This document shows positions 699 through 52,171 of a stretch of DNA of 64,000 nt, one piece after another. Every line of letters starts with the position of its first letter. Within the stretch, counting starts at the first letter, position 1. The DNA is from Siphonodentalium dalli (lineage: Eukaryota; Mollusca; Scaphopoda; Gadilida; Siphonodentaliidae): assembly GCA_032622095.1 (NCBI GenBank), contig CP136067.1, forward strand, positions 181,446,556 to 181,510,555, in the 5' to 3' direction. Made by a program: the position numbers and the translations under genes. The notes under the pieces were generated by a model that searched no databases, was not told the DNA's origin, and saw nothing but the letters and a program-made list of their open reading frames with translations.

Positions 699-3600
699 CC
701 ACTGTACCTGTATTGGTTCTTGTGTATGATCCTCACGGATGTTATATCCACTGTACCTGTATTGGTTCTTGTGTATGATCCTCACGGATGTTTATATATT
801 CACTGTACCTGTATTGGTTCTTGTGTATGATCCTCACGAATGTTTATATATCCACTGTACCTGTATTGGTTCTTGTGTATGATCCTCACGGATGTTTATA
901 TCCACTGTACCTGTATTGGTTCTTGTGCATGATCCTCACGGATGTTATATCCACTGTACCTGTATTGGTTCTTGTGTATGATCCTCACGGATGTTTATAT
1001 CCACTGTACCTGTATTGGTTCTTGTGTATGATCCTCACGGATGTTATATCCACTGTACCTGTATTGGTTCTTGTGCATGATCCTCACGGATGTTTATATC
1101 CACTGTACCTGTATTGGTTCTTGTGTATGATCCTCACGGATGTTTATATATCCACTGTACCTGTATTGGTTCTTGTGCATGATCCTCACGGATGTTATAT
1201 CCACTGTACCTGTATTGGTTCTTGTGTATGATCCTCACGGATGTTTCTATATCCACTGTACCTGTATTGGTTCTTGTGCATGATCCTCACGGATGTTATA
1301 TCCACTGTATCTGTATTGGTTCTTGTGTATGATCCTCACGGATGTTTATATATCCACTGTACCTGTATTGGTTCTTGTGTATGATCCTCATGGATGTTTA
1401 TATCCACTGTACCTGTATTGGTTCTTGTGTATGATCCTCACGGATGTTTATATATCCACTGTACCTGTATTGGTTCTTGTGTATGATCCTCACGGATGTT
1501 TATATCCACTGTACCTGTATTGGTTCTTGTGTATGATCCTCACGGATGTTTATATCCACTGTACCTGTATTGGTTCTTGTGTATGATCCTCACGGATGTT
1601 TATATCCACTGTACCTGTATTGGTTCTTGTGCATGATCCTCACGGATGTTTATATCCACTGTACCTGTATTGGTTCTTGTGCATGATCCTCACGGATGTT
1701 TATATATCCACTGTACCTGTATTGGTTCTTGTGTATGATCCTCACGGATGTTTATATCCACTGTACCTGTATTGGTTCTTGTGCATGATCCTCACGGATG
1801 TTTATATCCACTGTACCTGTATTGGTTCTTGTGTATGATCCTCACGGATGTTATATCCACTGTACCTGTATTGGTTCTTGTGTATGATCCTCACGGATGT
1901 TATATCCACTGTACCTGAATTGGTTCTTGTGTATGATCCTCACGGATGTTATATCCACTGTACCTGTATTGGTTCTTGTGTATGATCCTCACGGATGTTA
2001 TATCCACTGTACCTGTATTGGTTCTTGTGCATGATCCTCACGGATGTTCATATATCCACTGTACCTGTATTGGTTCTTGTGTATGATCCTCACGGATGTT
2101 ATATCCACTGTACCTGTATTGGTTCTTGTGCATGATCCTCACGGATGTTTATATCCACTGTACCTGTATTGTTTCTTGTGTATGATCCTCACGGATGTTT
2201 ATATATCCACTGTACCTGTATTGGTTCTTGTGTAAGATCCTCACGGATGTTATATCCACTGTACCTGTATTGGTTCTTGTGTATGATCCTCACGGATGTT
2301 ATATCCACTGTACCTGTATTGGTTCTTGTATATGATCCTCACGGATGTTATATCCACTGTACCTGTATTGGTTCTTGTGTATGATCCTCACGGATGTTTA
2401 TATATCCACTGTACCTGTATTGGTTCTTGTGTATGATCCTCACGGATGTTATATCCACTGTACCTGTATTGGTTCTTGTGTATGATCCTCACGGATGTTT
2501 ATATCCACTGTACCTGTATTGGTTCTTGTGCATGATCCTCACGGATGTTCATATCCACTGTACCTGTATTGGTTCTTGTGTATGATCCTCACGGATGTTT
2601 ATATCCACTGTACCTGTATTGGTTCTTGTGTATGATCCTCACGGATGTTTATATCCACTGTACCTGTATTTGATCTTGTGTATGATCCTCACGGATGTTA
2701 TATCCACTGTACCTGTATTGGTTATTGTGCATGATCCTCACGGATGTTTATATCCACTGTACCTGTATTGGTTCTTGTGTATGATCCTCACGGATGTTTA
2801 TATATCCACTGTACCTGTATTGGTTCTTGTGTATGATCCTCACGGATGTTATATCCACTGTACCTGTATTGGTTCTTGTGTATGATCCTCACGGATGTTT
2901 ATATATCCACTGTACCTGTATTGGTTCTTGTGTATGATCCTCACGGATGTTTATATATCCACTGTACCTGTATTGGTTCTTGTGTATGATCCTCACGGAT
3001 GTTATATCCACTGTACCTGTATTGGTTCTTGTGTATGATCCTCACGAATGTTTACATATCCACTGTACCTGTATTGGTTCTTGTGTATGATCCTCACGGA
3101 TGTTATATCCACTGTACCTGTATTGGTTCTTGTGTATGATCCTCACGGATGTTATATCCACTGTACCTGTATTGGTTCTTGTGCATGATCCTCACGGATG
3201 TTATATCCACTGTACCTGTATTGGTTCTTGTGTATGTTCCTCTCGGATGTTATATCCACTGTACCTGTATTGGTTCTTGTGTATGATCCTCACGGATGTT
3301 TATATATCCACTGTACCTGTATTGGTTCTTGTGTATGATCCTCACGGATGTTTATATATCCACTGTACCTGTATTGGTTCTTGTGTATGATCCTCACGGA
3401 TGTTATATCCACTGTACCTGTATTGGTTCTTGTGTATGATCCTCACGGATGTTATATCCACTGTACCTGTATTGGTTCTTGTGTATGATCCTCACGGATG
3501 TTATATCCACTGTACCTGTATTGGTTCTTGTGTATGATCCTCACGGATGTTTATATATCCACTGTACCTGTATTGGTTCTTGTGTATGATCCTCACGGAT

Positions 3601-6600
3601 GTTTATATCCACTGTACCTGTATTGGTTCTTGTGCATGATCCTCACGGATGTTTATATCCACTGTACCTGTATTGGTTCTTGTGTATGATCCTCACGGAT
3701 GTTATATCCACTGTACCTGTATTGGTTCTTGTGTATGATCCTCACGGATGTTATATCCACTGTACCTGAATTGGTTCTTGTGTATGATCCTCACGGATGT
3801 TATATCCACTGTACCTGTATTGGTTCTTGTGTATGATCCTCACGGATGTTATATCCACTGTACCTGTATTGGTTCTTGTGCATGATCCTCACGGATGTTC
3901 ATATATCCACTGTACCTGTATTGGTTCTTGTGTATGATCCTCACGGATGTTATATCCACTGTACCTGTATTGGTTCTTGTGCATGATCCTCACGGATGTT
4001 TATATCCACTGTACCTGTATTGTTTCTTGTGTATGATCCTCACGGATGTTTATATATCCACTGTACCTGTATTGGTTCTTGTGTAAGATCCTCACGGATG
4101 TTATATCCACTGTACCTGTATTGGTTCTTGTGTATGATCCTCACGGATGTTATATCCACTGTACCTGTATTGGTTCTTGTATATGATCCTCACGGATGTT
4201 ATATCCACTGTACCTGTATTGGTTCTTGTGTATGATCCTCACGGATGTTTATATATCCACTGTACCTGTATTGGTTCTTGTGTATGATCCTCACGGATGT
4301 TATATCCACTGTACCTGTATTGGTTCTTGTGTATGATCCTCACGGATGTTTATATCCACTGTACCTGTATTGGTTCTTGTGCATGATCCTCACGGATGTT
4401 TATATCCACTGTACCTGTATTGGTTCTTGTGTATGATCCTCACGGATGTTTATATCCACTGTACCTGTATTGGTTCTTGTGTATGATCCTCACGGATGTT
4501 TATATCCACTGTACCTGTATTTGTTCTTGTGTATGATCCTCACGGATGTTATATCCACTGTACCTGTATTGGTTATTGTGCATGATCCTCACGGATGTTT
4601 ATATCCACTGTACCTGTATTGGTTCTTGTGTATGATCCTCACGGATGTTTATATATCCACTGTACCTGTATTGGTTCTTGTGTATGATCCTCACGGATGT
4701 TATATCCACTGTACCTGTATTGGTTCTTGTGTATGATCCTCACGGATGTTTATATATCCACTGTACCTGTATTGGTTCTTGTGTATGATCCTCACGGATG
4801 TTTATATATCCACTGTACCTGTATTGGTTCTTGTGTATGATCCTCACGGATGTTATATCCACTGTACCTGTATTGGTTCTTGTGTATGATCCTCACGAAT
4901 GTTTATATATCCACTGTACCTGTATTGGTTCTTGTGTATGATCCTCACGGATGTTATATCCACTGTACCTGTATTGGTTCTTGTGTATGATCCTCACGGA
5001 TGTTATATCCACTGTACCTGTATTGGTTCTTGTGCATGATCCTCACGGATGTTATATCCACTGTACCTGTATTGGTTCTTGTGTATGTTCCTCACGGATG
5101 TTATATCCACTGTACCTGTATTGGTTCTTGTGTATGATCCTCACGGATGTTTATATATCCACTGTACCTGTATTGGTTCTTGTGTATGATCCTCACGGAT
5201 GTTTATATATCCACTGTACCTGTATTGGTTCTTGTGTATGATCCTCACGGATGTTATATCCACTGTACCTGTATTGGTTCTTGTGTATGATCCTCACGGA
5301 TGTTATATCCACTGTACCTGTATTGGTTCTTGTGTATGATCCTCACGGATGTTATATCCACTGTACCTGTATTGGTTCTTGTGTATGATCCTCACGGATG
5401 TTTATATATCCACTGTACCTGTATTGGTTCTTGTGTATGATCCTCACGGATGTTTATATATCCACTGTACCTGTATTGGTTCTTGTGTATGATCCTCACG
5501 GATGTTATATCCACTGTACCTGTATTGGTTCTTGTGTATGATCCTCACGGATGTTATATCCACTGTACCTGTATTGGTTCTTGTGCATGATCCTCACGGA
5601 TGTTATATCCACTGTACCTGTATTGGTTCTTGTGTATGATCCTCACGGATGTTATATCCACTGTACCTATATTGGTTCTTGTGTATGATCCTCACGGATG
5701 TTTATATCCACTGTACCTGTATTGGTTCTTGTGCATGATCCTCACGGATGTTTATATCCACTGTACCTGTATTGGTTCTTGTGCATGATCCTCACGGATG
5801 TTTATATATCCACTGTACCTGTATTGGTTCTTGTGTATGATCCTCACGGATGTTATATCCACTGTACCTGTATTGGTTCTTGTGTATGATCCTCACGGAT
5901 GTTTATATCCACTGTACCTGTATTGGTTCTTGTGTATGATCCTCACGGATGTTTATATATCCACTGTACCTGTATTGGTTCTTGTGTATGATCCTCACGG
6001 ATGTTATATCCACTGTACCTGTATTGGTTCTTGTGCATGATCCTCGCGGATGTTTATATCCACTGTACCTGTATTGGTTCTTGTGCATGATCCTCACGGA
6101 TGTTTATATATCCACTGTACCTGTATTGGTTCTTGTGTATGATCCTCACGGATGTTTATATATCCACTGTACCTGTATTGGTTCTTGTGTATGATCCTCA
6201 CGGATGTTTATATATCCACTGTACCTGTATTGGTTCTTGTGTATGATCCTCACGGATGTTATATCCACTGTACCTGTATTGGTTCTTGTGTATGATCCTC
6301 ACGGATGTTTATATATCCACTGTACATGTATTGGTTCTTGTGCATGATCCTCACGGATGTTTATATATCCACTGTACCTGTATTGGTTCTTGTGCATGAT
6401 CCTCACGGATGTTTATATATCCACTGTACCTGTATTGGTTCTTGTGTATGATCCTCACGGATGTTATATCCACTGTACCTGTATTGGTTCTTGTGTATGA
6501 TCCTCACGGATGTTATATCCACTGTACCTGTATTGGTTCTTGTGCATGATCCTCACGGATGTTATATCCACTGTACCTGTATTGGTTCTTGTGCATGATC

Positions 6601-7960
6601 CTCACGGATGTTATATCCACTGTACCTGTATTGGTTCTTGTGCATGATCCTCGCGGATGTTTATATCCACTGTACCTGTATTGGTTCTTGTGCATGATCC
6701 TCACGGATGTTATATCCACTGTACCTGTATTGGTTCTTGTGTATGATCCTCACGGATGTTATATCCACTGTACCTGTATTGGTTCTTGTGCATGATCCTC
6801 GCGGATGTTTATATCCACTGTACCTGTATTGGTTCTTGTGTATGATCCTCACGGATGTTTATATCCACTGTACCTGTATTGGTTCTTGTGCATGATCCTC
6901 GCGGATGTTTATATCCACTGTACCTGTATTGGTTCTTGTGTATGATCCTCACGGATGTTTATATATCCACTGTACATGTATTGGTTCTTGTGCATGATCC
7001 TCACGGATGTTTATATATCCACTGTACCTGTATTGGTTCTTGTGCATGATCCTCACGGATGTTTATATATCCACTGTACCTGTATTGGTTCTTGTGTATG
7101 ATCCTCACGGATGTTATATCCACTGTACCTGTATTGGTTCTTGTGTATGATCCTCACGGATGTTATATCCACTGTACCTGTATTGATTCTTGTGTATGAT
7201 CCTCACGGATGTTATATCCACTGTACCTGTATTGGTTCTTGTGTATGATCCTCACGGATGTTATATCCACTGTACCTGTATTGGTTCTTGTGTATGATCC
7301 TCACGGATGTTATATCCACTGTACCTGTATTGGTTCTTGTGTATGATCCTCACGGATGTTATATCCACTGTACCTGTATTGGTTCTTGTATATGATCCTC
7401 ACGGATGTTATATCCACTGTACCTGTATTGCTTCTTGTGCATGATCCTCGCGGATGTTTATATCCACTGTACCTGTATTGGTTCTTGTGTATGATCCTCA
7501 CGGATGTTTATATCCACTGTACCTGTATTGGTTCTTGTGCATGATCCTCGCGGATGTTTATATCCACTGTACCTGTATTGGTTCTTGTGTATGATCCTCA
7601 CGGATGTTATATCCACTGTACCTGTATTGGTTCTTGTGTATGATCCTCACGGATGTTATATCCACTGTACCTGTATTGGTTCTTGTGTATGATCCTCACG
7701 GATGTTATATCCACTGTACCTGTATTGGTTCTTGTGCATGATCCTCGCGGATGTTTATATATCCACTGTACCTGTATTGGTTCTTGTGCATGATCCTCAC
7801 GGATGTTTATATCCACTGTACCTGTATTGGTTCTTGTGTATGATCCTCACGGATGTTTATATATCCACTGTACCTGTATTGGTTCTTGTGCATGATCCTC
7901 ACGGATGTTTATATCCACTGTACCTGTATTGGTTCTTGTGCATGATCCTCATGGATGTTT
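699..7960. repeat. 50-bp minisatellite array, about 145 units
   Basis: The unit reads CCACTGTACCTGTATTGGTT, then CTTGTGTATGATCCTCACGG, then ATGTTTATAT. Three length forms of 49, 50 and 52 bp differ in the run of TA before CCACTG. Common variants are TGCATGATCC for TGTATGATCC and CTCGCGG for CTCACGG. Units are almost identical, so every frame shows short repetitive open stretches that are not genes. The matching place in copy B (about 32758-32800) holds a single unit. The last unit (7910-7960) ends in ATGGATGTTTTGG at the junction with the LINE on the minus strand. Confidence 0.97.
1690..5391. repeat. Higher-order duplication of 1851 bp inside the 50-bp array
   Basis: Rare variant units recur at a fixed distance of 1851 bp. 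Examples are CCTGAATTGG near 1914 and 3765, TATTGTTTCTTG near 2167 and 4018, TGTAAGATCC near 2231 and 4082, and TTGGTTATTG near 2720 and 4571. The edges given are approximate. A few single-base differences separate the two (for example TTTGATCTTG near 2670 against TTTGTTCTTG near 4521), so the block of about 37 units was copied recently as a whole. Confidence 0.85.
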
Positions 7961-11650: not shown

Positions 11651-13832
11651 TTTGTTGACATTATGTAGAATTTTAGCGCACGCCCCATTTTGTTGCCCAA
11701 TTCTCCAGGTTGTGTAGGTCTTTTTGTAATGATACTTGGTCGTCGATGGTGAATATATTTTTGTCTATCAAGCAGTCGTCCGCGAAAAGAGGTACTTGTG
11801 CGTTGAAACACTCCGGGTGGGGGGGGGGGGTCATTTACATGTATATGGCACAGAAATAGTGCATGGTGGTCCCAACACTGATGATTTCCCTTCAATAACG
11901 ACTCTTGATTTATATCTCTTGTCAGGAAGTTCTTTAGCCAATCTGAGATGCACGCCGCGTATGATTATCGGTGCCGCAATGTTTGCAAGGAGTTTTGTAT
12001 GTGCATGGCACGGTACAAAAGCCTTTGCGAAGCCTAGGATTTCCATAAGTACGTCTGTTTGTATTTCTTTATCGAAGGATGTCAGTATATCGGTAGTTGT
12101 TGTAGGAAGTTGAGTACGCAAGAGTCATGATGATTGACCCTTCTTGAACCATGGATTTAGGAGGTAAGGATGTTTTGTTCCTCCAGATGGTTGAGTACAT
12201 GACGACATAGTATGTTTGTTCTCCATGTTTTTGCAACAGACTGATGTTAATGAAACTGGTCGGTATAGTTTTCAGCTAGGTGGATATTTCATTCTTTTCT
12301 TTTTTTGTATACTGGTGCAATGCTGGCACTTAGCCTGTCCTCATATAGGTCTCCACTCTCTAGTTGTCGGGATGATTGTAGTAAGTCCAGGTGTTATATG
12401 GCTATACGGTGCAAGTTTTCAGGACAATATTAATTTTGCGATACCGTCCGGGCCCGGAGCCTTACCTCGCTTGACGTCTTTTAGTAATTTTGTCACCTCT
12501 TTCTAACAGATCCTTCATGTTGGTGAAGTTTCAAATCAGGTTTGGTATATTGTCGTCTTTTTTTTTATTTGGTGAAGACTGATTGGAACTGTTCCTCGAG
12601 TATCTCAGCTTTACCCACAACGTCCTCCGTAAGATGGCCTCCTTTCTTCAGTGAGGGGTGGGACTCCCAATGTTTCCTTGACTTAATGTATGACAAGAAT
12701 GGTTTAGGGCCTTTCTTTTTAAATCCGCAGAGCATGCTGTTATATAGGTGTTTAAATTATGCGGATACATTTTCTACAGACTCTCTGAAACTGTTTGTAC
12801 TTTTACCATGCATTCCTGTTATCTACTGGTACCACTCCACAGAAACTCTCTTAAGTCAATAAAGCTCTACTTCTAAAAGTGAAGTGAAACACTATGCTCG
12901 GGTGTTCAAACTCACATACCAAATAAATGTTCTCCATGAGGCATTTTGTATCTTTATCCCAATATTAAAATAAAATCAGAAATAGATATGGTTTATTGCT
13001 GCAGGGGTCACCACCGGTATTGATGTGACGAAGCAATAAATATGTAGTCATTCTTACTACTTTATGTGTTGATATTTAAAAAATGTTCATCACTAGTTGA
13101 CATTTAGTGTAGAAAATATTTGACAGCAGAGTCTGTTCTTATGTTTTCTCCATTTGCTCCTTATCTTATATTATTTAAACTGTTTTATAGGAAGAATGAC
13201 TCAGGAATCCTGAGTCAGGATACCTTTATAATTTGAATAAAACATAATTTTCAAAAATATTTGGAAATTCATGTACTGTGTCATTCGTTCGATGGTGATG
13301 AGTCTGATGAGATCCCCCCCCCCCCCCATGCATCTACATTTTCCGACCAACATGTTAACCACTGGGCCAAATAAATAAATATTCTGTGTTCTCAGGCACC
13401 TCCCTCATCATTACATTTTTTTTTTTAAAGCCTCGTCAAACTTTAAAACAAATATTTTCTGTTATAAATATTGGATTTGAACAACGAAATTGAATTTTTT
13501 TTCTGGAGTATGTTATTGAGATTTTGAGAAAAAAATAATAATAAAGAGCCTGTCTCTCTCATCTCAAAATTTAGATCTAATTCTCTGAAAAGACAGATAT
13601 TTTATTTTAATGGCCCAGGATATATTTCTGTGGCTCGATAAAATCATCTCATTCTGGACCTTTATAAGTGATGTGATTGTTACATGGGGTTTGTAACTTT
13701 GTATCATATTTTCAAAGATTACTAACACATTTGTAAAGCTAAATTGAGTTATATAAATTATGGTCAGAACATGAGTACAAAATATTGAAAACAGTGACAT
13801 TTAGACCAAGGCATTTATAGCTACTGTATGAG

Positions 13833-35144: not shown

Positions 35145-36222
35145 TCTGTCACTTGTAGTATTCGGCTGGTTAGTTCGTTGGTGTAAGATGACATTGTATC
35201 TTGTAGTATTCGGCTGGTTAGTTCGTTGGTGTATGATGACATTGTCACTTGTAGTATTCGGCTGGTTAGTTCGTTGGTGTAAGATGACATTGTCACTTGT
35301 AGTATTCGGCTGGTTAGTTCGTTGGTGTATGATGACATTGTCACGTGTAGTATTCGGCTGGTTAGTTCGTTGGTGTATGATGACATTGTCACTTGTAGTA
35401 TTATGCTGGTTAGTTCGTTGGTGTATGATGACATTGTCACGTGTATTATTCGGCTGGTTAGTTCGTTGGTGTAAGATGACATTGTCACTTGTAGTATTCG
35501 GCTGGTTAGTTCGTTGGTGTAAGATGACATTGTCACTTGTAGTATTCGGCTGGTTAGTTCGTTGGTGTATGATGACATTGTCACTTGTAGTATTCGGCTG
35601 GTGAGTTCGTTGGTGTATGATGACATTGTCACTTGTAGTATTCGGCTGGTTAGTTCGTTGGTGTATGATGACATTGTCACTTGTAGTGTTCGGCTGGTTA
35701 GTTCGTTGGTGTAAGATGACATTGTATCTTGTAGTTTTCGGCTGGTTAGTTCGTTGGTGTAAGATGACATTGTCACTTGTAGTATTCGGCTGGTTAGTTC
35801 GTTGGTGTAAGATGACATTGTCACTTGTAGTATTCGGCTGGTTAGTTCGTTGGTGTATGATGACATTGTCACTTGTAGTATTCGGCTGGTTAGTTCGTTG
35901 GTGTATGATGACATTGTCACTTGTAGTATTCGGCTGGTTAGTTCGTTGGTGTATGATGACATTGTCACTACATTGTGTTTTGAGCTGATACGTACGATGG
36001 GCGGACGGACGGACACCCGCTAATTTAATAGTCCGTCAAAATGTTCTTTTTCGGTGGGACAAGAAGGATATTGACATCATCGAGAGAGAGAGAGAGAGGG
36101 AGAGAGAGACAACAGCTAGATTCATCACTGGCGACTACGACGTCTCGAGATATGAAGGGGCTATGCCAGAGATGATACATCACCATCATTTAAAATCCTT
36201 GCAAGATCGAAGGACAGACCAG
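34433..36222. repeat. Inverted duplication of the CR1 flank around a 48-bp array
   Basis: 34433-34677 (SLQDRR region, GA tract, GTCCGTCCGTCCGCCC) reappears in reverse complement at about 35974-36222. Between the arms lie the CR1-like remnant and a block of the 48-bp array. The right arm then joins abruptly to the inverted part of the array. Confidence 0.88.
35145..35970. repeat. 48-bp minisatellite, first block of copy B (about 17 units)
   Basis: These are units of the LINE-derived 48-bp repeat in the same orientation as at 11403. Diagnostic variants (TATTATGCTGG near 35400, TGTATTATTCGG near 35445) recur in the same order about 2.53 kb downstream (near 37929). Confidence 0.95.
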
Positions 36223-37541
36223 AATACTACAAGTGACAATGTCATCATACAGACACACACCAACGAACTAACCAGCCGAATACTACAAGTCATCATACAC
36301 CAACGAACTAACCAGCCGAATACTACAAGTGACAATGTCATCATACAGACACACACCAACGAACTAACCAGCCGAATACTACAAGTGACAATGTCATCAT
36401 ACAGACACACACCAACGAACTAACCAGCCGAATACTACAAGTGACAATGTCATCATACAGACACACACCAACGAACTAACCAGCCGAATACTACAAGTGA
36501 CAATGTCATCATACACCAACGAACTAACCAGCCGAATACTACAAGTGACAATGTCATCTTACACCAACGAACTAACCAGCCGAATACTACAAGTGACAAT
36601 GTCATCTTACACCAACGAACTAACCAGCCGAATAATACACGTGACAATGTCATCTTACACCAACGAACTAACCGCCGAATACTACAAGTGACAATGTCAT
36701 CATACACCAACGAACTAACCAGCCGAATACTACAAGTGACAATGTCATCTTACACCAACGAACTAACCAGCCGAATACTACAAGTGACAATGTCATCATA
36801 CACCAACGAACTAACCAGCCGAATACTACAAGTGACAATGTCAACTTACACCAACGAACTAACCAGCCGAATACTACAAGTGACAATGTCATCATACAGA
36901 CACACACCAACGAACTAACCAGCCGAATACTACAAGTGACAATGTCATCTTACACCAACGAACTAACCAGCCGAATAATACACGTGACAATGTCATCTTA
37001 CACCAACGAACTAACCGCCGAATACTACAAGTGACAATGTCATCATATACCAACGAACTAACCAGCCGAATACTACAAGTGACAATGTCATCTTACACCA
37101 ACGAACTAACCAACCGAATACTACAAGTGACAATGTCATCATACAGACACACACCAACGAACTAACCAGCCGAATACTACAAGTGACAATGTCATCATAC
37201 ACCAACGAACTAACCAGCCGAATACTACAAGTGACAATGTCATCTTACACCAACGAACTAACCAGCCGAATACTACAAGTGACAATGTCATCATACACCA
37301 ACGAACTAACCAGCCGAATACTACAAGTGACAATGTCATCTTACACCAACGAACTAACCAGCCGAATACTACAAGTGACAATGTCATCATACAGACACAC
37401 ACCAACGAACTAACCAGCCGAATACTACAAGTGACAATGTCATCATACACCAACGAACTAACCATCCGAATACTACAAGTGACAATGTCATCATACACCA
37501 ACGAACTAACCAGCCGAATACTACAAGATACAATGTCATCA
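36223..37541. repeat. 48-bp minisatellite, inverted block (about 27 units)
   Basis: The units are in the opposite orientation to the blocks on both sides. Position x in this block pairs with 77367 minus x in 39826-41144. This includes rare variants such as the CAGACACACACC insertions and CCATCCGAAT, with no length change over 1.3 kb. Confidence 0.93.
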
Positions 37542-40500
37542 TATAGTAGTTGGTTGGTTAGTTCGTTGGTGTAAGATGACATTGTCACTTGTAGTATTCG
37601 GCTGGTTAGTTCGTTGGTATATGATGACATTGTCACTTGTAGTATTCGGCGGTTAGTTCGTTGGTGTAAGATGACATTGTCACGTGTATTATTCGGCTGG
37701 TTAGTTCGTTGGTGTATGAGCACTGTCACTTGTAGTATTCGGCTGGTTAGTTCGTTGGTGTATGGTGATATTGTCACTTGTAGTATTCGGCTGGTTAGTT
37801 CGTTGGTGTATGATGACATTGTCACTTGTAGTATTTGGCTGGTTAGTTCGTTGGTGTATGATGACATTGTCACGTGTAGTATTCGGCTGGTTAGTTCGTT
37901 GGTGTATGATGACATTGTCACTTGTAGTATTATGCTGGTTAGTTCGTTGGTGTATGATGACATTGTCACGTGTATTATTCGGCTGGTTAGTTCGTTGGTG
38001 TAAGATGACATTGTCACTTGTAGTATTCGGCTGGTTAGTTCGTTGGTGTAAGATGACATTGTCACTTGTAGTATTCGGCTGGTTAGTTCGTTGGTGTATG
38101 ATGACATTGTCACTTGTAGTATTCGGCTGGTTAGTTCGTTGGTGTATGATGACATTGTCACTTGTAGTATTCGGCTGGTTAGTTCGTTGGTGTATGATGA
38201 CATTGTCACTTGTAGTGTTCGGCTGGTTAGTTCGTTGGTGTATGATGACATTGTCACTTGTAGTATTCGGCTGGTTAGTTCGTTGGTGTATGATGACATT
38301 GTCACTTGTAGTATTCGGCTGGTTAGTTCGTTGGTGTAAGATGACATTGTCACTTGTAGTATTCGGCTGGTTAGTTCGTTGGTGTATGATGACATTGTCA
38401 CTTGTAGTATTCGGCTGGTTAGTTCGTTGGTGTATGATGACATTGTCACTTGTAGTATTCGGCTGGTTAGTTCGTTGGTGTATGATGACATTGTCACTTG
38501 TAGTATTCGGCTGGTTAGTTCGTTGGTGTATGATGACACTGTCACTTGTAGTATTCGGCTGGTTAGTTCGTTGGTGTATGGTGATATTGTCACTTGTAGT
38601 ATTCGGCTGGTTAGTTCGTTGGTGTATGATGACATTGTCACTTGTAGTATTTGGCTGGTTAGTTCGTTGGTGTATGATGACATTGTCACTTGTAGTATTC
38701 GGCTGGTTAGTTCGTTGGTGTATGATGACATTGTCACTTGTAGTATTCGGCTGGTTAGTTCGTTGGTGTATGATGACATTGTCACTTGTAGTATTCGGCT
38801 GGTTAGTTCGTTGGTGTAAGATGACATTGTCACTTGTAGTATTCGGCTGGTTAGTTCGTTGGTGTATGATGACATTGTCACTTGTAGTATTCGGCTGGTT
38901 AGTTCGTTGGTGTATGATGATATTGTCACTTGTAGTATTCGGCTGGTTAGTTCGTTGGTGTATGATGACATTGTCACTTGTAGTATTCGGCTGGTTAGTT
39001 CGTTGGTGTATGATGACATTGTCACTTGTAGTATTCGGCTGGTTAGTTCGTTGGTGTATGATGACATTGTCACTTGTAGTATTCGGCTGGTTAGTTCGTT
39101 GGTGTATGATGACATTGTCACTTGTAGTATTCGGCTGGTTAGTTCGTTGGTGTATGATGACATTGTCACTTGTAGTATTCGGCGGTTAGTTCATTGGTGT
39201 ATGATGACATTGTCACTTGTAGTATTCGGCTGGTTAGTTCGTTGGTGTATGATGACATTGTCACTTGTAGTATTCGGCTGGTTAGTTCGTTGGTGTATGA
39301 TGACATTGTCACTTGTAGTATTCGGCTGGTTAGTTCGTTGGTGCATGATGACACTGTCACTTGTAGTATTCGGCTGGTTAGTTCGTTGGTGTATGATGAC
39401 ATTGTCACTTGTAGTATTCGGCTGGTTAGTTCGTTGGGGTATGATGACATTGTCACTTGTAGTATTCGGCTGGTTAGTTCGTTGGTGTAAGATGACATTG
39501 TCACTTGTAGTATTCGGCTGGTTAGTTCGTTGGTGTAAGATGACATTGTCGCTTGTAGTATTCGGCTGGTTAGTTCGTTGGTGTAAGATGACATTGTCAC
39601 TTGTAGTATTCGGCTGGTTAGTTCGTTGGTGTAAGATGACATTGTCACTTGTAGTATTCGGCTGGTTAGTTCGTTGGTGTATGATGACATTGTCACTTGT
39701 AGTATTCGGCTGGTTAGTTCGTTGGTGTATGATGACATTGTCACTTGTAGTATTCGGCTGGTTAGTTCGTTGGTGTAAGATGACATTGTCACTTGTAGTA
39801 TTCGGCTGGTTAGTTCGTTGGTATATGATGACATTGTATCTTGTAGTATTCGGCTGGTTAGTTCGTTGGTGTATGATGACATTGTCACTTGTAGTATTCG
39901 GATGGTTAGTTCGTTGGTGTATGATGACATTGTCACTTGTAGTATTCGGCTGGTTAGTTCGTTGGTGTGTGTCTGTATGATGACATTGTCACTTGTAGTA
40001 TTCGGCTGGTTAGTTCGTTGGTGTAAGATGACATTGTCACTTGTAGTATTCGGCTGGTTAGTTCGTTGGTGTATGATGACATTGTCACTTGTAGTATTCG
40101 GCTGGTTAGTTCGTTGGTGTAAGATGACATTGTCACTTGTAGTATTCGGCTGGTTAGTTCGTTGGTGTATGATGACATTGTCACTTGTAGTATTCGGCTG
40201 GTTAGTTCGTTGGTGTGTGTCTGTATGATGACATTGTCACTTGTAGTATTCGGTTGGTTAGTTCGTTGGTGTAAGATGACATTGTCACTTGTAGTATTCG
40301 GCTGGTTAGTTCGTTGGTATATGATGACATTGTCACTTGTAGTATTCGGCGGTTAGTTCGTTGGTGTAAGATGACATTGTCACGTGTATTATTCGGCTGG
40401 TTAGTTCGTTGGTGTAAGATGACATTGTCACTTGTAGTATTCGGCTGGTTAGTTCGTTGGTGTGTGTCTGTATGATGACATTGTCACTTGTAGTATTCGG

Positions 40501-41440
40501 CTGGTTAGTTCGTTGGTGTAAGTTGACATTGTCACTTGTAGTATTCGGCTGGTTAGTTCGTTGGTGTATGATGACATTGTCACTTGTAGTATTCGGCTGG
40601 TTAGTTCGTTGGTGTAAGATGACATTGTCACTTGTAGTATTCGGCTGGTTAGTTCGTTGGTGTATGATGACATTGTCACTTGTAGTATTCGGCGGTTAGT
40701 TCGTTGGTGTAAGATGACATTGTCACGTGTATTATTCGGCTGGTTAGTTCGTTGGTGTAAGATGACATTGTCACTTGTAGTATTCGGCTGGTTAGTTCGT
40801 TGGTGTAAGATGACATTGTCACTTGTAGTATTCGGCTGGTTAGTTCGTTGGTGTATGATGACATTGTCACTTGTAGTATTCGGCTGGTTAGTTCGTTGGT
40901 GTGTGTCTGTATGATGACATTGTCACTTGTAGTATTCGGCTGGTTAGTTCGTTGGTGTGTGTCTGTATGATGACATTGTCACTTGTAGTATTCGGCTGGT
41001 TAGTTCGTTGGTGTGTGTCTGTATGATGACATTGTCACTTGTAGTATTCGGCTGGTTAGTTCGTTGGTGTATGATGACTTGTAGTATTCGGCTGGTTAGT
41101 TCGTTGGTGTGTGTCTGTATGATGACATTGTCACTTGTAGTATTCGGCTGGTTAGTTCGTTGGTGTGTGTCTGTATGATGACATTGTCACTTGTAGTATT
41201 CGGCTGGTTAGTTCGTTGGTGTATGCTGACTTGTAGTATTCGGCTGGTTAGTTCGTTGGTGTGTGTCTGTATGATGACATTGTCACTTGTAGTATTCGGC
41301 TGGTTAGTTCGTTGGTGTGTGTCTGTATGATGACATTGTCACTTGTAGTATTCGGCTGGTTAGTTCGTTGGTGTGTGTCTGTATGATGACATTGTCACTT
41401 GTAGTATTCGGCTGGTTAGTTCTTTGGTGTAAGATGACAT
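37542..41440. repeat. 48-bp minisatellite, main block (about 80 units)
   Basis: The orientation is that of the first block. A higher-order step of 816 bp (17 units) is visible from repeated rare variants: TATGGTGATATTG near 37761 and 38577, TATTTGGCTGG near 37832 and 38648. Near the right end many units carry GTGTGTGTCTGTATG, and two are shortened. Long open frames in several phases (up to 676 codons) are by-products of a 48-bp unit that lacks stops, not genes. Confidence 0.95.
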
Positions 41441-41849
41441 TGACTTTTGTTGACATTATGTAGAATTTTAGCGCACGCCCCATTTTGTTACCCAATTCTC
41501 CAGGTTGTGTAGGTCTTTTGTGATGATACTTGGTCGTCGATAAGATAAGATAAGATAAGATAATGATTTATTGGCAAAAAACATCCACACGAGGACAGTT
41601 TGCTAAAACAATGGATAATGGTATATACAAAACATGTGATAATAGAGTATACAAGAACAAAATTACAAAATATGCTATATAAGATGTACAAGGAATCTCG
41701 AAGAATATCGATGGTGAATATATTTTTGTGTAGCAAGGAGTCGTCCGCGAAAAGAGGTACTTGTGCCTTCAAACACTCCGGGGGGGGGGGGTCATTTACA
41801 TGCATATGACACATATGGTGGTCCCAACACTGATGATTTCCCTTCAAAA
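41441..41849 (-). pseudogene. CR1-like LINE RT part, copy B (before the TIR element)
   Basis: This matches 11651-11890. On the minus strand it includes the active-site region LFADDSLLHKNIFTID, split by a small insertion at 41542-41707. It ends where the 6.8-kb element begins and continues at 48662. A poly-G near 41781-41790 also occurs at 11819-11830. Confidence 0.8.
41542..41707 (-). mobile_element. Short LINE/SINE 3' end with (TCTTA)n tail
   Basis: About 166 bp here are absent from copy A. The flanks share TCGAT (41537-41541 and 41708-41712). On the minus strand the insert ends GCCAATAAATCATTATC followed by TCTTA repeats, the look of a 5'-truncated retroposon tail. Confidence 0.75.
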
Positions 41850-46039: not shown

Positions 46040-46587
46040 TTTCACTTAAGTGCAACAAGAATATTCGTTATTGCGCTTAAACGAAATTAGATATTCCTTA
46101 TTGATCTTATGAGCCCAATAATATCTTCTCTTATTGTGCTTAAGCTCAATTAGAATTGTCCTTATTGCGCATAAGCGTGATTGGGGACTCCTTAAGCGCA
46201 ATTAATATCTCCATCATGAGATCACCCCTCTGTGCAAATACTAGAATCCGAATTGGCCTATACGCGTGGAGTCACCAGGTCACAAATAAACTCCACCCAT
46301 TTCACTATGGACTACACCATTTGAATTAGTGTTTATGTGGCTAATTGTGCTTAAGCGTATTAAGGAAGATTTTGACTTCCACTAACAGCCCAATTAGCTC
46401 TTATTGCACTTAAGCGCAATAATAATATTCCTTATTGCGCTTTTATTGGAGATTCCTTTTTGTGCTTATATATAAGATCAATAAGATATGCCTTATTGCG
46501 CTTAAACGCAATAAAATATTCGCTTAAGCGCAATTAGATATTTCCTTATTGCGCTTAAGCCCAATTAGATCTTCCCCTAATTGTGCT
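46040..46587. repeat. Cluster of CTTAAG-centred palindromes
   Basis: About ten words of the type GCGCTTAAGCGC, or near forms of it, are joined by short AT-rich spacers such as AATTAGATATTCCTTATT. The spacing is irregular, so this is not an ordinary tandem array. It lies in the TIR element, next to a foldback. Confidence 0.8.
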
Positions 46588-47034
46588 TAAAGGTGCATAG
46601 TCGGAATTAACGCTCGTACAATTACTATTTCCTAGGCTTCGGTGGTCAAAAATATTTGATTCGAGTCGAGGAACCCACCCATCAAAGTTCAGAGTGATCA
46701 AATATCGATTTTTGAAATCTATTATTTTTTACCACCGATAATTTTTTTAGTGGCCCAGTAAAAGGTCGATGAGAAGACGGTCTCGGACCAAATTGCGGAT
46801 CAAGATGGATAACTCTAAAATAAAGTGGCTTTTTGTGTCAAATAATTGACAAACCGGTAAAATTTCATTGAACAAAATGTTGATAAATAAGAGGTCTTGG
46901 GCAATTTTGTACTATAGTTGACTAATTTATTTTTGGGCAATTAATCGATTCTGATAACTGGAGCAGCATTTAAAAAACATTGTTGTTGTTGGAATCTGAT
47001 GATATGGGGACCATCGAATCGGTTTGAGTACCTT
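46588..47034. mobile_element. Foldback, GAGTCGAGGAAC family
   Basis: The start TTAAAGGTGCATAGTCGG and the end CGGTTTGAGTACCTTC are relatives of the 57298-57784 termini. It contains ATTTGATTCGAGTCGAGGAA. Confidence 0.75.
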
Positions 47035-50178: not shown

Positions 50179-50479
50179 TTAACCCTTTCAGTGCCAGGGG
50201 CCGATCTCATCGGCCCTAATTTACGGTCTGTAAAATCGGCCCTAAAACAAATTAAAAATAAATTTTTTATTTTTTTTTTAGATTTTTAAAATATTATTAA
50301 AATTGTAAATAATTGTAAAAAATAATAACAAATGATGAAAAATTGTTAGGCCAATGCATTCTCTTATATATGCGAGGCGACCTATGGTCGACTCGCATAT
50401 ATAAGAGGATGCATTGGCACAGGGTATATGGGTTGATAGAACTTGATACACAAATCGGACCTGGCACTCAAAGGGTTAA
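50179..50479. mobile_element. TTAA MITE, TTAACCCTTTCAGTGCC type, B-only
   Basis: It runs from TTAACCCTTTCAGTGCCAGG to CCTGGCACTCAAAGGGTTAA, with a CCAATGCATTCTC hairpin at 50354-50417. Copy A has the exact empty site CTCTCTTAAGTCAATAAAGC (about 12846), with a single TTAA. Confidence 0.93.
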
Positions 50480-50905
50480 GTCAATAAAGCTCTACTTCTA
50501 AAAGTGAAGTGAAACACTATGCTAGCTGGGTGTTCAAACTCACATACCAAATAAATTGTCTCCATGAGGCATTTTGTATCTTTATCCCAATATTAAAATA
50601 AAATCAGAAATAGATATGGTTTATTGCTGCAGGGGTCACCACTGGTATTGATGAAGCCATAAATGTGTAGTCATTCTTACTACTTTATGTGTTGACATTT
50701 TTAAAATGTTCATCCCTAGTTGACATTTAGTCTATTTAGTGTAGAAAATATTTGACAGAAGAGTCTGTTCTTATGTTTTCTCCATTTGCTCCTTATTTTA
50801 TATTGTTTAAACTGTTTTATAGGAAGAATGTCAGGATACCTTTATAATTTGAATAAAACATATCATTTTCAAAAATATTTGGAAATTCATGTACTGTGAC
50901 ACTTA
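50480..50905. other. Non-coding, matches 12850-13280
   Basis: AT-rich copy B flank with no recognisable feature of its own. Confidence 0.5.
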
Positions 50906-51889
50906 TGGGGCGCCGTTCCTCTATTTATCCCCTATTTAGAGATATCTCCAATTCATTTGGAGATATCTCCAATTCATTAAGAGATATCTCCAATTGTTAT
51001 GAGATATCTCCAATTGCCAAGGAGATATCTCCATAAAAATATGGAGATATCTCTAAATCACTAGCAGATATCTCTTAATTCACGAGGAGATATCTCTTAG
51101 CCACGAGGAGATATCTCCAAATCTACGCGATTTGCAGATATCTCTTTGTCCAATTAAGAGATATCTCCAAATGACTAAGAGATATCTCCTCGCGAATTAA
51201 GAGATACATGTATATCCAATTCATTAGCAGATATCTCTTAATTGACGAGGAGATATATCTTAGTGGCATGATTTAGAGATATCTCTTAATTCGCGAGGAG
51301 ACATCTCTTAGTGATTTAGAGATATCTCTTAATTCGCGAGGAGGTATCTCTTAGTCATTTGGAGATATCTCTTAATGCTGTCGAATTGGAGATATATATA
51401 TCTTCGTGATCGAGGAGATATCTCTTTAAGCCTGTCCCAGTCATCACTGCCGAATTGTAGATATATCTTAGTGATCGAGGAGATATCTCTTAATTCAGCA
51501 GCCTAAGAGATATCTCCAAATGGCTAATAGATATCTCCTAGCGAATTAAGAGATATCTGTAAATACTCGCGAATTAAGAGATATCTCTAAATCATGCCAC
51601 TAAGAGATATCTCCTCGGGAATTAAGAGATATCAGCTAATGAATTGGATATATCTCTTAATTCACGAGGAGATATCTCTTAGTCATTTGGAGATATCTCT
51701 TAATTGAATGAAGGATATCTCCTCGGTCATGTCGATTAAGAGATATCTCTAAATTGCTAGCAGATATCTCTTAATTCGCGAGGAGATATCTCTAAATCGC
51801 TAGGAGATATGTCTTAATTCACGAGGAGATATCTCTTAGCCACGAGGAGATATCTTCAAATAGGGGATAAATAGAGGAATGGCGCCCCA
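50906..51889. mobile_element. 984-bp TIR element filled with AGATATCT palindromes
   Basis: The termini are TGGGGCGCC and GGCGCCCCA, and inside them are TTCCTCTATTTATCCCC and GGGGATAAATAGAGGAA. Between the termini about 30 exact AGATATCT words are present, mostly as GAGATATCTC or GGAGATATCTCC. Several near forms are also present. Spacers are 8-20 bp, often CACGAG, AATTCATT or AATTCGCGAG. Copy A has no such element (TACTGTGTCATTCG near 13273). ACTGTG on the left and ACTGTC on the right hint at a short target duplication. No open frame is present. Confidence 0.88.
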
Positions 51890-52039
51890 CAGTCACTGTC
51901 ATTCATTGGATGGTGATGATATCCCCCCCCCCCCCATGCATCTACATTTTCCCACCAACATGTTAACCACTGGGCCGAATAAATAAAAATTCTGTGTTCT
52001 CAGGCACCTCCAAGCCTTGAAATAGTGTGTCTGTCATTT

Positions 52040-52171
52040 GCAGAATGAGGTTCCCAGAGGGTGAATTTAGTGACGCTACCCCGCATAGCGGGCTAGCATC
52101 ACCAAATTCACCCTCTGGGAACCTCATTCTGCTGAGGTGTAAGCAGAATGAGGTCCCCAGAGGGTGAATTA
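52040..52171. repeat. Hairpin with a third arm (GCAGAATGAGG)
   Basis: The palindrome 52040-52132 is built of GCAGAATGAGGTTCCCAGAG with GGGTGAATT and the complement, around GCGGG-type words. A third partial arm in direct orientation follows at 52144-52171. Copy A lacks it. Confidence 0.85.

Follow-up and report, generated by a model that had tools for sequence, protein, structure and literature searches.

Palindrome arrays as putative transposase docking sites in an IS3EU/GingerRoot-like transposon family of Siphonodentalium dalli

Subterminal repeats that bind a transposase are already known from CACTA and hAT elements, as described in the parts of the literature drawn on here. CACTA (En/Spm) elements carry a short motif many times at both ends, which is bound by the element-encoded protein TNPA and is required in cis (PMC2613891). 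The motif varies between families, co-evolution of repeat and protein has already been proposed, TNPA also has a regulatory role, and the target-site duplication is 3 bp, for example ATA (PMC2613891). In the hAT element Hermes, N-terminal BED domains of the transposase bind many subterminal sites cooperatively, including a quasi-palindrome (PMC10368747). According to published accounts, IS3EU families always end in TA..TA and usually make 6-bp duplications (PMC10045372), and fungal IS3EU/GingerRoot elements have TAYGG..CCRTA termini with TIRs over 30 bp (PMC12730594). Satellite-like tandem arrays are carried by non-autonomous Helentrons of oysters (PMC7492417).

The element described here lies in the window, the whole stretch of 64,000 nucleotides of Siphonodentalium dalli DNA that was analysed, where an original prediction made from the sequence alone had proposed an inverted-ended element with about 30 copies of a palindromic word. 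The core word AGATATCT does occur in 30 exact copies, every one within 50940-51855, compared with a mean of 1.37 and a maximum of 4 in 100 shuffled sequences, and 42 sites are found inside the element when one mismatch is allowed. The inverted ends are real but longer than claimed, with TIRs of 34 bp each (TATGGGGCGCC(G/A)TTCCTCTATTTATCCCCTATTT), and the element measures 988 bp instead of 984 (Table 1). Its flanks align to 13214-13283 and 13279-13403 in the duplicate copy A (window 13.2-13.4 kb) with nothing inserted between them, confirming the predicted absence of the element there, and copy A falls short by about 6 bp at the junction.

Table 1. Features of the window element (window coordinates) and array words of rva_4-linked families (loci)
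Feature	Position or loci	Strand	Basis or note
Whole element, non-autonomous IS3EU/GingerRoot-like TIR element, 988 bp	50904..51891	.	termini, flanks, absent from copy A
Left target-site duplication GACACT, 5/6 identical to right	50898..50903	+	flank comparison
Right target-site duplication GTCACT	51892..51897	+	flank comparison
Left TIR, 34 bp, TATGGGGCGCC...	50904..50937	+	terminus comparison
Right TIR, 34 bp, outer pair CA in place of TA	51858..51891	-	terminus comparison
Palindrome array corresponding to exon-side array of full copies	50939..51425	.	aligns to L002 1693-2226, 84%
Palindrome array corresponding to opposite end of full copies	51425..51856	.	aligns to L002 3-485, 88.6%
Interior lost in window copy	about 51425	.	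alignment to L002
Empty site, duplicate copy A	13275..13290	.	flank alignment
Array word GAGATATCTC	first family		perfect palindrome
Array word GTGATATCAC	sister family		perfect palindrome
Array word CCTGATATATCAGG	L031, L043		perfect palindrome
Array word GGCGTTTAAACGCC	L032, L044		perfect palindrome
Array word TCCTAATTAGGA	L052		perfect palindrome
Array word TCGTGGCCACGA	L056		perfect palindrome
Array word TCGAGATCTCGA	L057		perfect palindrome
Array word AAGTTAGCTAACTT	L058		perfect palindrome

Other repeats share the window. Near-perfect hairpins lie beside the element at 52040-52132 and at about 50350-50415, with 45-nt arms that are 93% complementary, and sequence resembling the latter was found again at L034:968-1036 (L-numbers denote loci fetched from the same genome). 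Two long satellites occupy 699-7960 and 35147-41442, with units of ~49-50 bp (about 145 copies) and of 48 bp, the latter present in both orientations.

The GAGATATCTC family, as the first family is named here, is real and its architecture is unusual. Across the genome (2.23 Gb in 9 contigs), the terminus pattern is matched 71 times in the forward and 73 times in the reverse orientation (144) at no more than one mismatch, and 195 and 190 times (385) at no more than three, with none for the reversed control at either threshold. The larger count probably takes in termini of a sister family and overlaps the 546 matches of that family at three mismatches, as only three positions distinguish the two terminus patterns. 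Twenty paired-end loci taken from the matches listed, together with the window copy, made up the 21 copies first examined, and these hold 7 to 42 exact AGATATCT sites. The proposed genome search thus returned same-ended copies with varying site numbers, and the prospect that no others existed did not materialize for this family. Movement as a unit, also predicted, is borne out by these copies, by the empty site in copy A, and by target-site duplications.

Both sister families have termini of the form TATGGGG..CCCCATA. When the two were pooled, 6-bp duplications were exact at 20 of the 29 loci with both ends (18/25 in the GAGATATCTC family, 2/4 in the GTGATATCAC sister family), 5/6 identical at four (the window copy, L003, L008, and L040), and less well matched at five (L017, L020, L025, L042, and L049). 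The L020 fetch ended before the true right end and its end pair is not real, and the L042 end was called one base off in this count. Two further loci, L004 and L011, have the same flanking sequence, inverted relative to each other, and probably represent a single insertion that was duplicated. Copies of ~500 bp without an interior (L009 and L010) retain 16-20 exact sites and exact 6-bp duplications, and L035, fetched for rva_4 fragments near a terminus, is another short copy. CACTA membership was rejected on ends that begin TATGG, not CACTA, and on a duplication of 6 bp, not 3. Target-site duplications of hAT elements are 8 bp long, and hAT membership was rejected on an 8/8 flank match at 0/29 loci.

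Fuller GAGATATCTC copies are ~2.2 kb long and consist of palindrome arrays at both ends around an interior. In eleven copies of 1.9-2.5 kb, one end carries 9-24 sites and the other 19-27 (18-24 being typical), and the end arrays lie about 0.95-1.6 kb apart. The window copy aligns to both end arrays of L002 with the interior missing and is therefore a deletion derivative, not an element of palindromes alone. The description of an element made almost wholly of palindromes accordingly gives way to that of an internally deleted, non-autonomous copy within a cut-and-paste family of DNA transposons that is IS3EU/GingerRoot-like. Reading of the long copies found no intact transposase inside any GAGATATCTC copy, and no transposase frame was recognized by eye in L014, L020, or L021-L028. 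The suggested search for a transposase gene with the same ends was successful in part, yielding an exon remnant but no complete gene. Long frames in L015, L046, and L049 were considered as an autonomous transposase and rejected, as by eye they resemble non-LTR retrotransposon insertions.

The sites within the arrays are regularly stepped. Among steps of 14 to 32 bp in 11 GAGATATCTC members, 331/411 are 21 or 22 bp and 64/411 are 26-28 bp, with a mean of 21.48 bp for those within 19-24 bp, so the original description of irregular 8-20-bp spacers was misleading. Seven other array words have mean steps of 20.8-22.0 bp, the value of 22.0 resting on six steps only. Two turns of B-DNA span 21.0 bp at 10.5 bp per turn; the step is thus close to two helical turns, placing adjacent sites near one face of the DNA with a slow drift.

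Between copies, divergence is 2- to 4-fold lower in the palindromes than in the spacers. In 14 exon-side arrays, hand-picked and then aligned, the per-pair difference is 3.9% in palindrome columns and 17.2% in spacer columns. When the palindrome mask was slid along the alignment, the observed contrast (0.1258) was reached in 0/536 rotations, with the best rotation (0.1174) close to it, as is to be expected of a periodic array. By identity band, the ratio of spacer to palindrome divergence is 2.2 (16 pairs), 4.5 (19), 4.3 (55), and 5.8 (1), of which the value for the closest pairs, 2.2, is the most reliable, as misalignment of repeats may inflate spacer divergence in the wider bands.

Coding sequence ties these arrays to a protein. 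The prediction that the element codes for nothing holds for the window copy and fails for the family, in which several copies retain an open stretch adjoining one array, with a start like MAEGRAHDILVH. An 80-aa version of this exon from L006 has 33 matches in its own genome, 12 of which lie within about 120 bp of a same-strand rva_4 match and show 35-51% identity. Those 12 belong to the sister family, with the word GTGATATCAC and a TIR, TATGGGGCGCCGTTCTTCTATTTATTACCTATTTA, that is near-identical to that of the first family and has 117+120 genome matches at no more than one mismatch (control 0). With the sister families aligned, the TIR and terminal spacers correspond, and the base that distinguishes the two words is different on both arms at 5/5 terminal sites. 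The frame of the sister family, 230 aa long, joins a related N-terminus to an rva_4 C-terminus (PF24764, profile positions 129-192 of 194, E 3.4e-19) with the catalytic core missing, and it has no internal stop in 4/7 of the longest matches. This core-deleted open frame, found at L036:2393-3082 and in relatives, could act as a repressor. A 13-kb sister copy (C8:58977600-58991415) has no core match and contains an insertion that by eye is non-LTR retrotransposon-like.

Arrays are also found beside rva_4 genes of other families. The genome holds at least 126 PF24764 matches (150/241 candidates scored), and none was found in any of 14 control genomes. Eighteen representative rva_4 loci, with second copies of three, fell into 14 families at 80% core identity, or 16 with the GAGATATCTC and GTGATATCAC families. 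An upstream array of at least five copies on a 20-23-bp step is present within the stretch fetched in 12/16 families, and in 8/16 its unit is perfectly palindromic over 10 bp or more, with no word shared between families; without the starting family, which was chosen for its array, the counts are 11/15 and 7/15. Two of these families, represented by L031 and L058, have cores that are 75% identical and words that are unrelated. The L053 array has an imperfect dyad only, the units of L033, L034, and L055 are non-palindromic, and L051 and L054, which group with L034 and L055, have a 15-bp array and none, respectively. No such array was found upstream in the remaining 4/16 families (L029, L050, L030/L059, and L060/L061); an additional 4-5 kb upstream of four array-less loci contained one 25-bp palindromic array, in L064. 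L029 and its relatives, with many near-identical rva_4 frames (294 aa) of equal score and no array within about 2 kb upstream, suggest a recently active family.

As a control, the window has no other array of at least five copies on an 18-24-bp step, and a single such array, in L028, is present in a further 13 loci (89,175 bases) beyond those of their own family. That array, TTTGGACTTAAGTCCAAA, lies within a GAGATATCTC copy at L028:3970-4232 and has 7-11 copies on a 21-24-bp step. Palindrome arrays with no rva_4 match seen nearby occur in L028, L062/L063, L064, and at 46 kb in the window, the last a cluster of decayed palindromes resembling TTGCGCTTAAGCGCAA (46050-46600) whose core word is also arrayed at L062:542-668, L063:567-693, and L064:4430-4642. 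Given the arrays of L062/L063 and L064, with no rva_4 match seen close by, arrays of this type are not uncommon in the genome.

By eye, several of the rva_4 frames have a WH.D ... GTEN ... NQRIE core. Matches to N-terminal helix-turn-helix domains all fall under Pfam cut-offs, and in 21/21 pairs among seven long proteins conservation is lower in the N-terminal region than in the core, which fits a changing word and is not specific to it. Two insertions were compared for each of two relatives, giving one end as TACGGCGGCC for L031/L043 and TACGGAAGCAC for L032/L044, read from the outside in. These located ends begin TACGG; for neither the L031 nor the L032 family was the other end located in the fetched loci.

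Taken together, it is probable that the element's own transposase docks as a dimer on the sites of these arrays, which would have a role in cis in transposition and, probably, in autoregulation. Pointing to this reading are the conservation of the words over the spacers, the two-turn step, the change on both arms between sisters, and the arrays beside transposase genes. Of the two ideas in the original prediction, a dense array of sites for a dimeric protein is therefore the better supported, as a set of sites predicted from sequence. The AGATATCT words of the GAGATATCTC family would each bind a transposase dimer through the N-terminal region, and the two-turn step would bring bound dimers near one face of the DNA, making cooperative binding possible. 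An array at each end would recruit transposase to the TIR and be needed in cis for transposition, and the array adjoining the start codon would probably also let the protein regulate its own promoter. Counting against docking are the four array-less families of 16, the three or four with imperfect or non-palindromic units, the helix-turn-helix matches under cut-off, the arrays away from rva_4 matches, the lack of an intact transposase inside a GAGATATCTC copy, the possible inflation of spacer divergence by misalignment, and the location of just one end in L031/L032.

Gene position bears on an alternative in which the arrays are operators only, through which the element's own protein or its core-deleted form represses or boosts its own promoter with no role in transposition. 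In the six palindrome families whose start codon can be assigned, the array stops 52-96 bp short of it (L006 96, L031 92, L032 72, L052 84, L056 70, and L036 52 bp), and the stop-free core-deleted frames of the GTGATATCAC family agree with such a function. L057 and L058 have no assignable start, their first in-frame Met lying 291 and 344 bp away, and the gap in other families is 367 bp (L034), 12 or 48 bp (L055), and 26 bp or more (L053). A pure operator, however, would not require short coding-free copies to keep arrays at both ends, and arrays also lie at the end away from the gene, leaving this alternative unlikely. It is rather improbable that the words are read by a host protein, such as a silencing factor or a general DNA-binding protein exploited by the transposon. 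The weak helix-turn-helix assignment of the transposase leaves room for such a reader, but a single host factor would favor one word, whereas families in this one genome have unrelated words and hold the step in common.

That the arrays are satellite-like repeats produced by slippage or recombination, with no binding function, appears quite improbable, even though tandem repeats inside mobile elements are known (PMC7492417), the arrays of L031, L032, and L052 are almost without variation, as if expanded recently, and the units of L033, L034, and L055 are not palindromes. Against this, spacers of the GAGATATCTC family vary around a preserved word, both arms carry a different distinguishing base in the two sisters at all five aligned terminal sites, and the 21-22-bp step recurs among families with unrelated words. 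Slippage as the sole cause was set aside for the GAGATATCTC family on the divergence of palindromes versus spacers and the paired arm change, and with it the in-place origin against which the original prediction was to be judged. Hairpins or cruciforms acting in excision or replication in place of protein sites, which the self-complementary words would allow, are very improbable, as the perfect cores are only 10-14 bp long and separated by 7-12 bp, hairpins do not need a regular two-turn step, and no observation made here demands them.

Docking by the element's own transposase carries a broader and more tentative implication. Each transposase lineage would read its own word, and word and protein would therefore change together. 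It is possible, at somewhat less than an even chance, that a clade of rva_4 (integrase-type) transposons in this genome carries lineage-private palindromes in tens of copies on a ~21.5-bp step, in subterminal sequence beside the start codon, with word and transposase reader replaced together and the architecture kept. If the transposases do read the arrays, this one genome would supply about eight DNA-binding regions, each with its matching site, among them sister pairs with recently diverged words. These would provide a system for the study of how an array of repeated sites and the protein that reads it shift specificity together and of how related transposons avoid mobilizing each other. Should such a lock-and-key relationship be true, the families would also form a natural library in which DNA-binding domains are matched with site arrays, and the core-deleted derivatives would be self-encoded repressors.

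Dense, helically stepped palindrome arrays with a lineage-specific word beside a transposase gene are undescribed in the cited literature, as far as the parts drawn on extend, and searches of the open-licence literature turned up no account of IS3EU-like elements with lineage-specific palindrome arrays. To our knowledge, Helentrons lack TIRs and target duplications of the present kind. Those of oysters are similar in that tandem arrays are carried by mobile elements, and in the source text drawn on no link to a transposase binding site was seen (PMC7492417). Set against published descriptions of IS3EU/GingerRoot elements, the present family agrees in its TA..TA termini, its 6-bp duplication, its 34-bp TIRs (> 30 bp), and its link to an integrase-core (rva_4) protein, and we infer that rva_4 covers IS3EU; it differs in its subterminal palindrome arrays, which are not mentioned in the available parts of PMC10045372 or PMC12730594. 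Hermes likewise has many subterminal sites, with N-terminal reading that is predicted here; as described, its 4-bp motifs are unevenly scattered, its reader is a zinc-finger BED domain, and it belongs to another superfamily. Like CACTA (En/Spm) elements, these transposons have many copies of a short, family-specific motif at both ends, with a reader protein that here is predicted, and unlike them they differ in termini, duplication, and transposase, with units that are palindromes set on a two-turn step.
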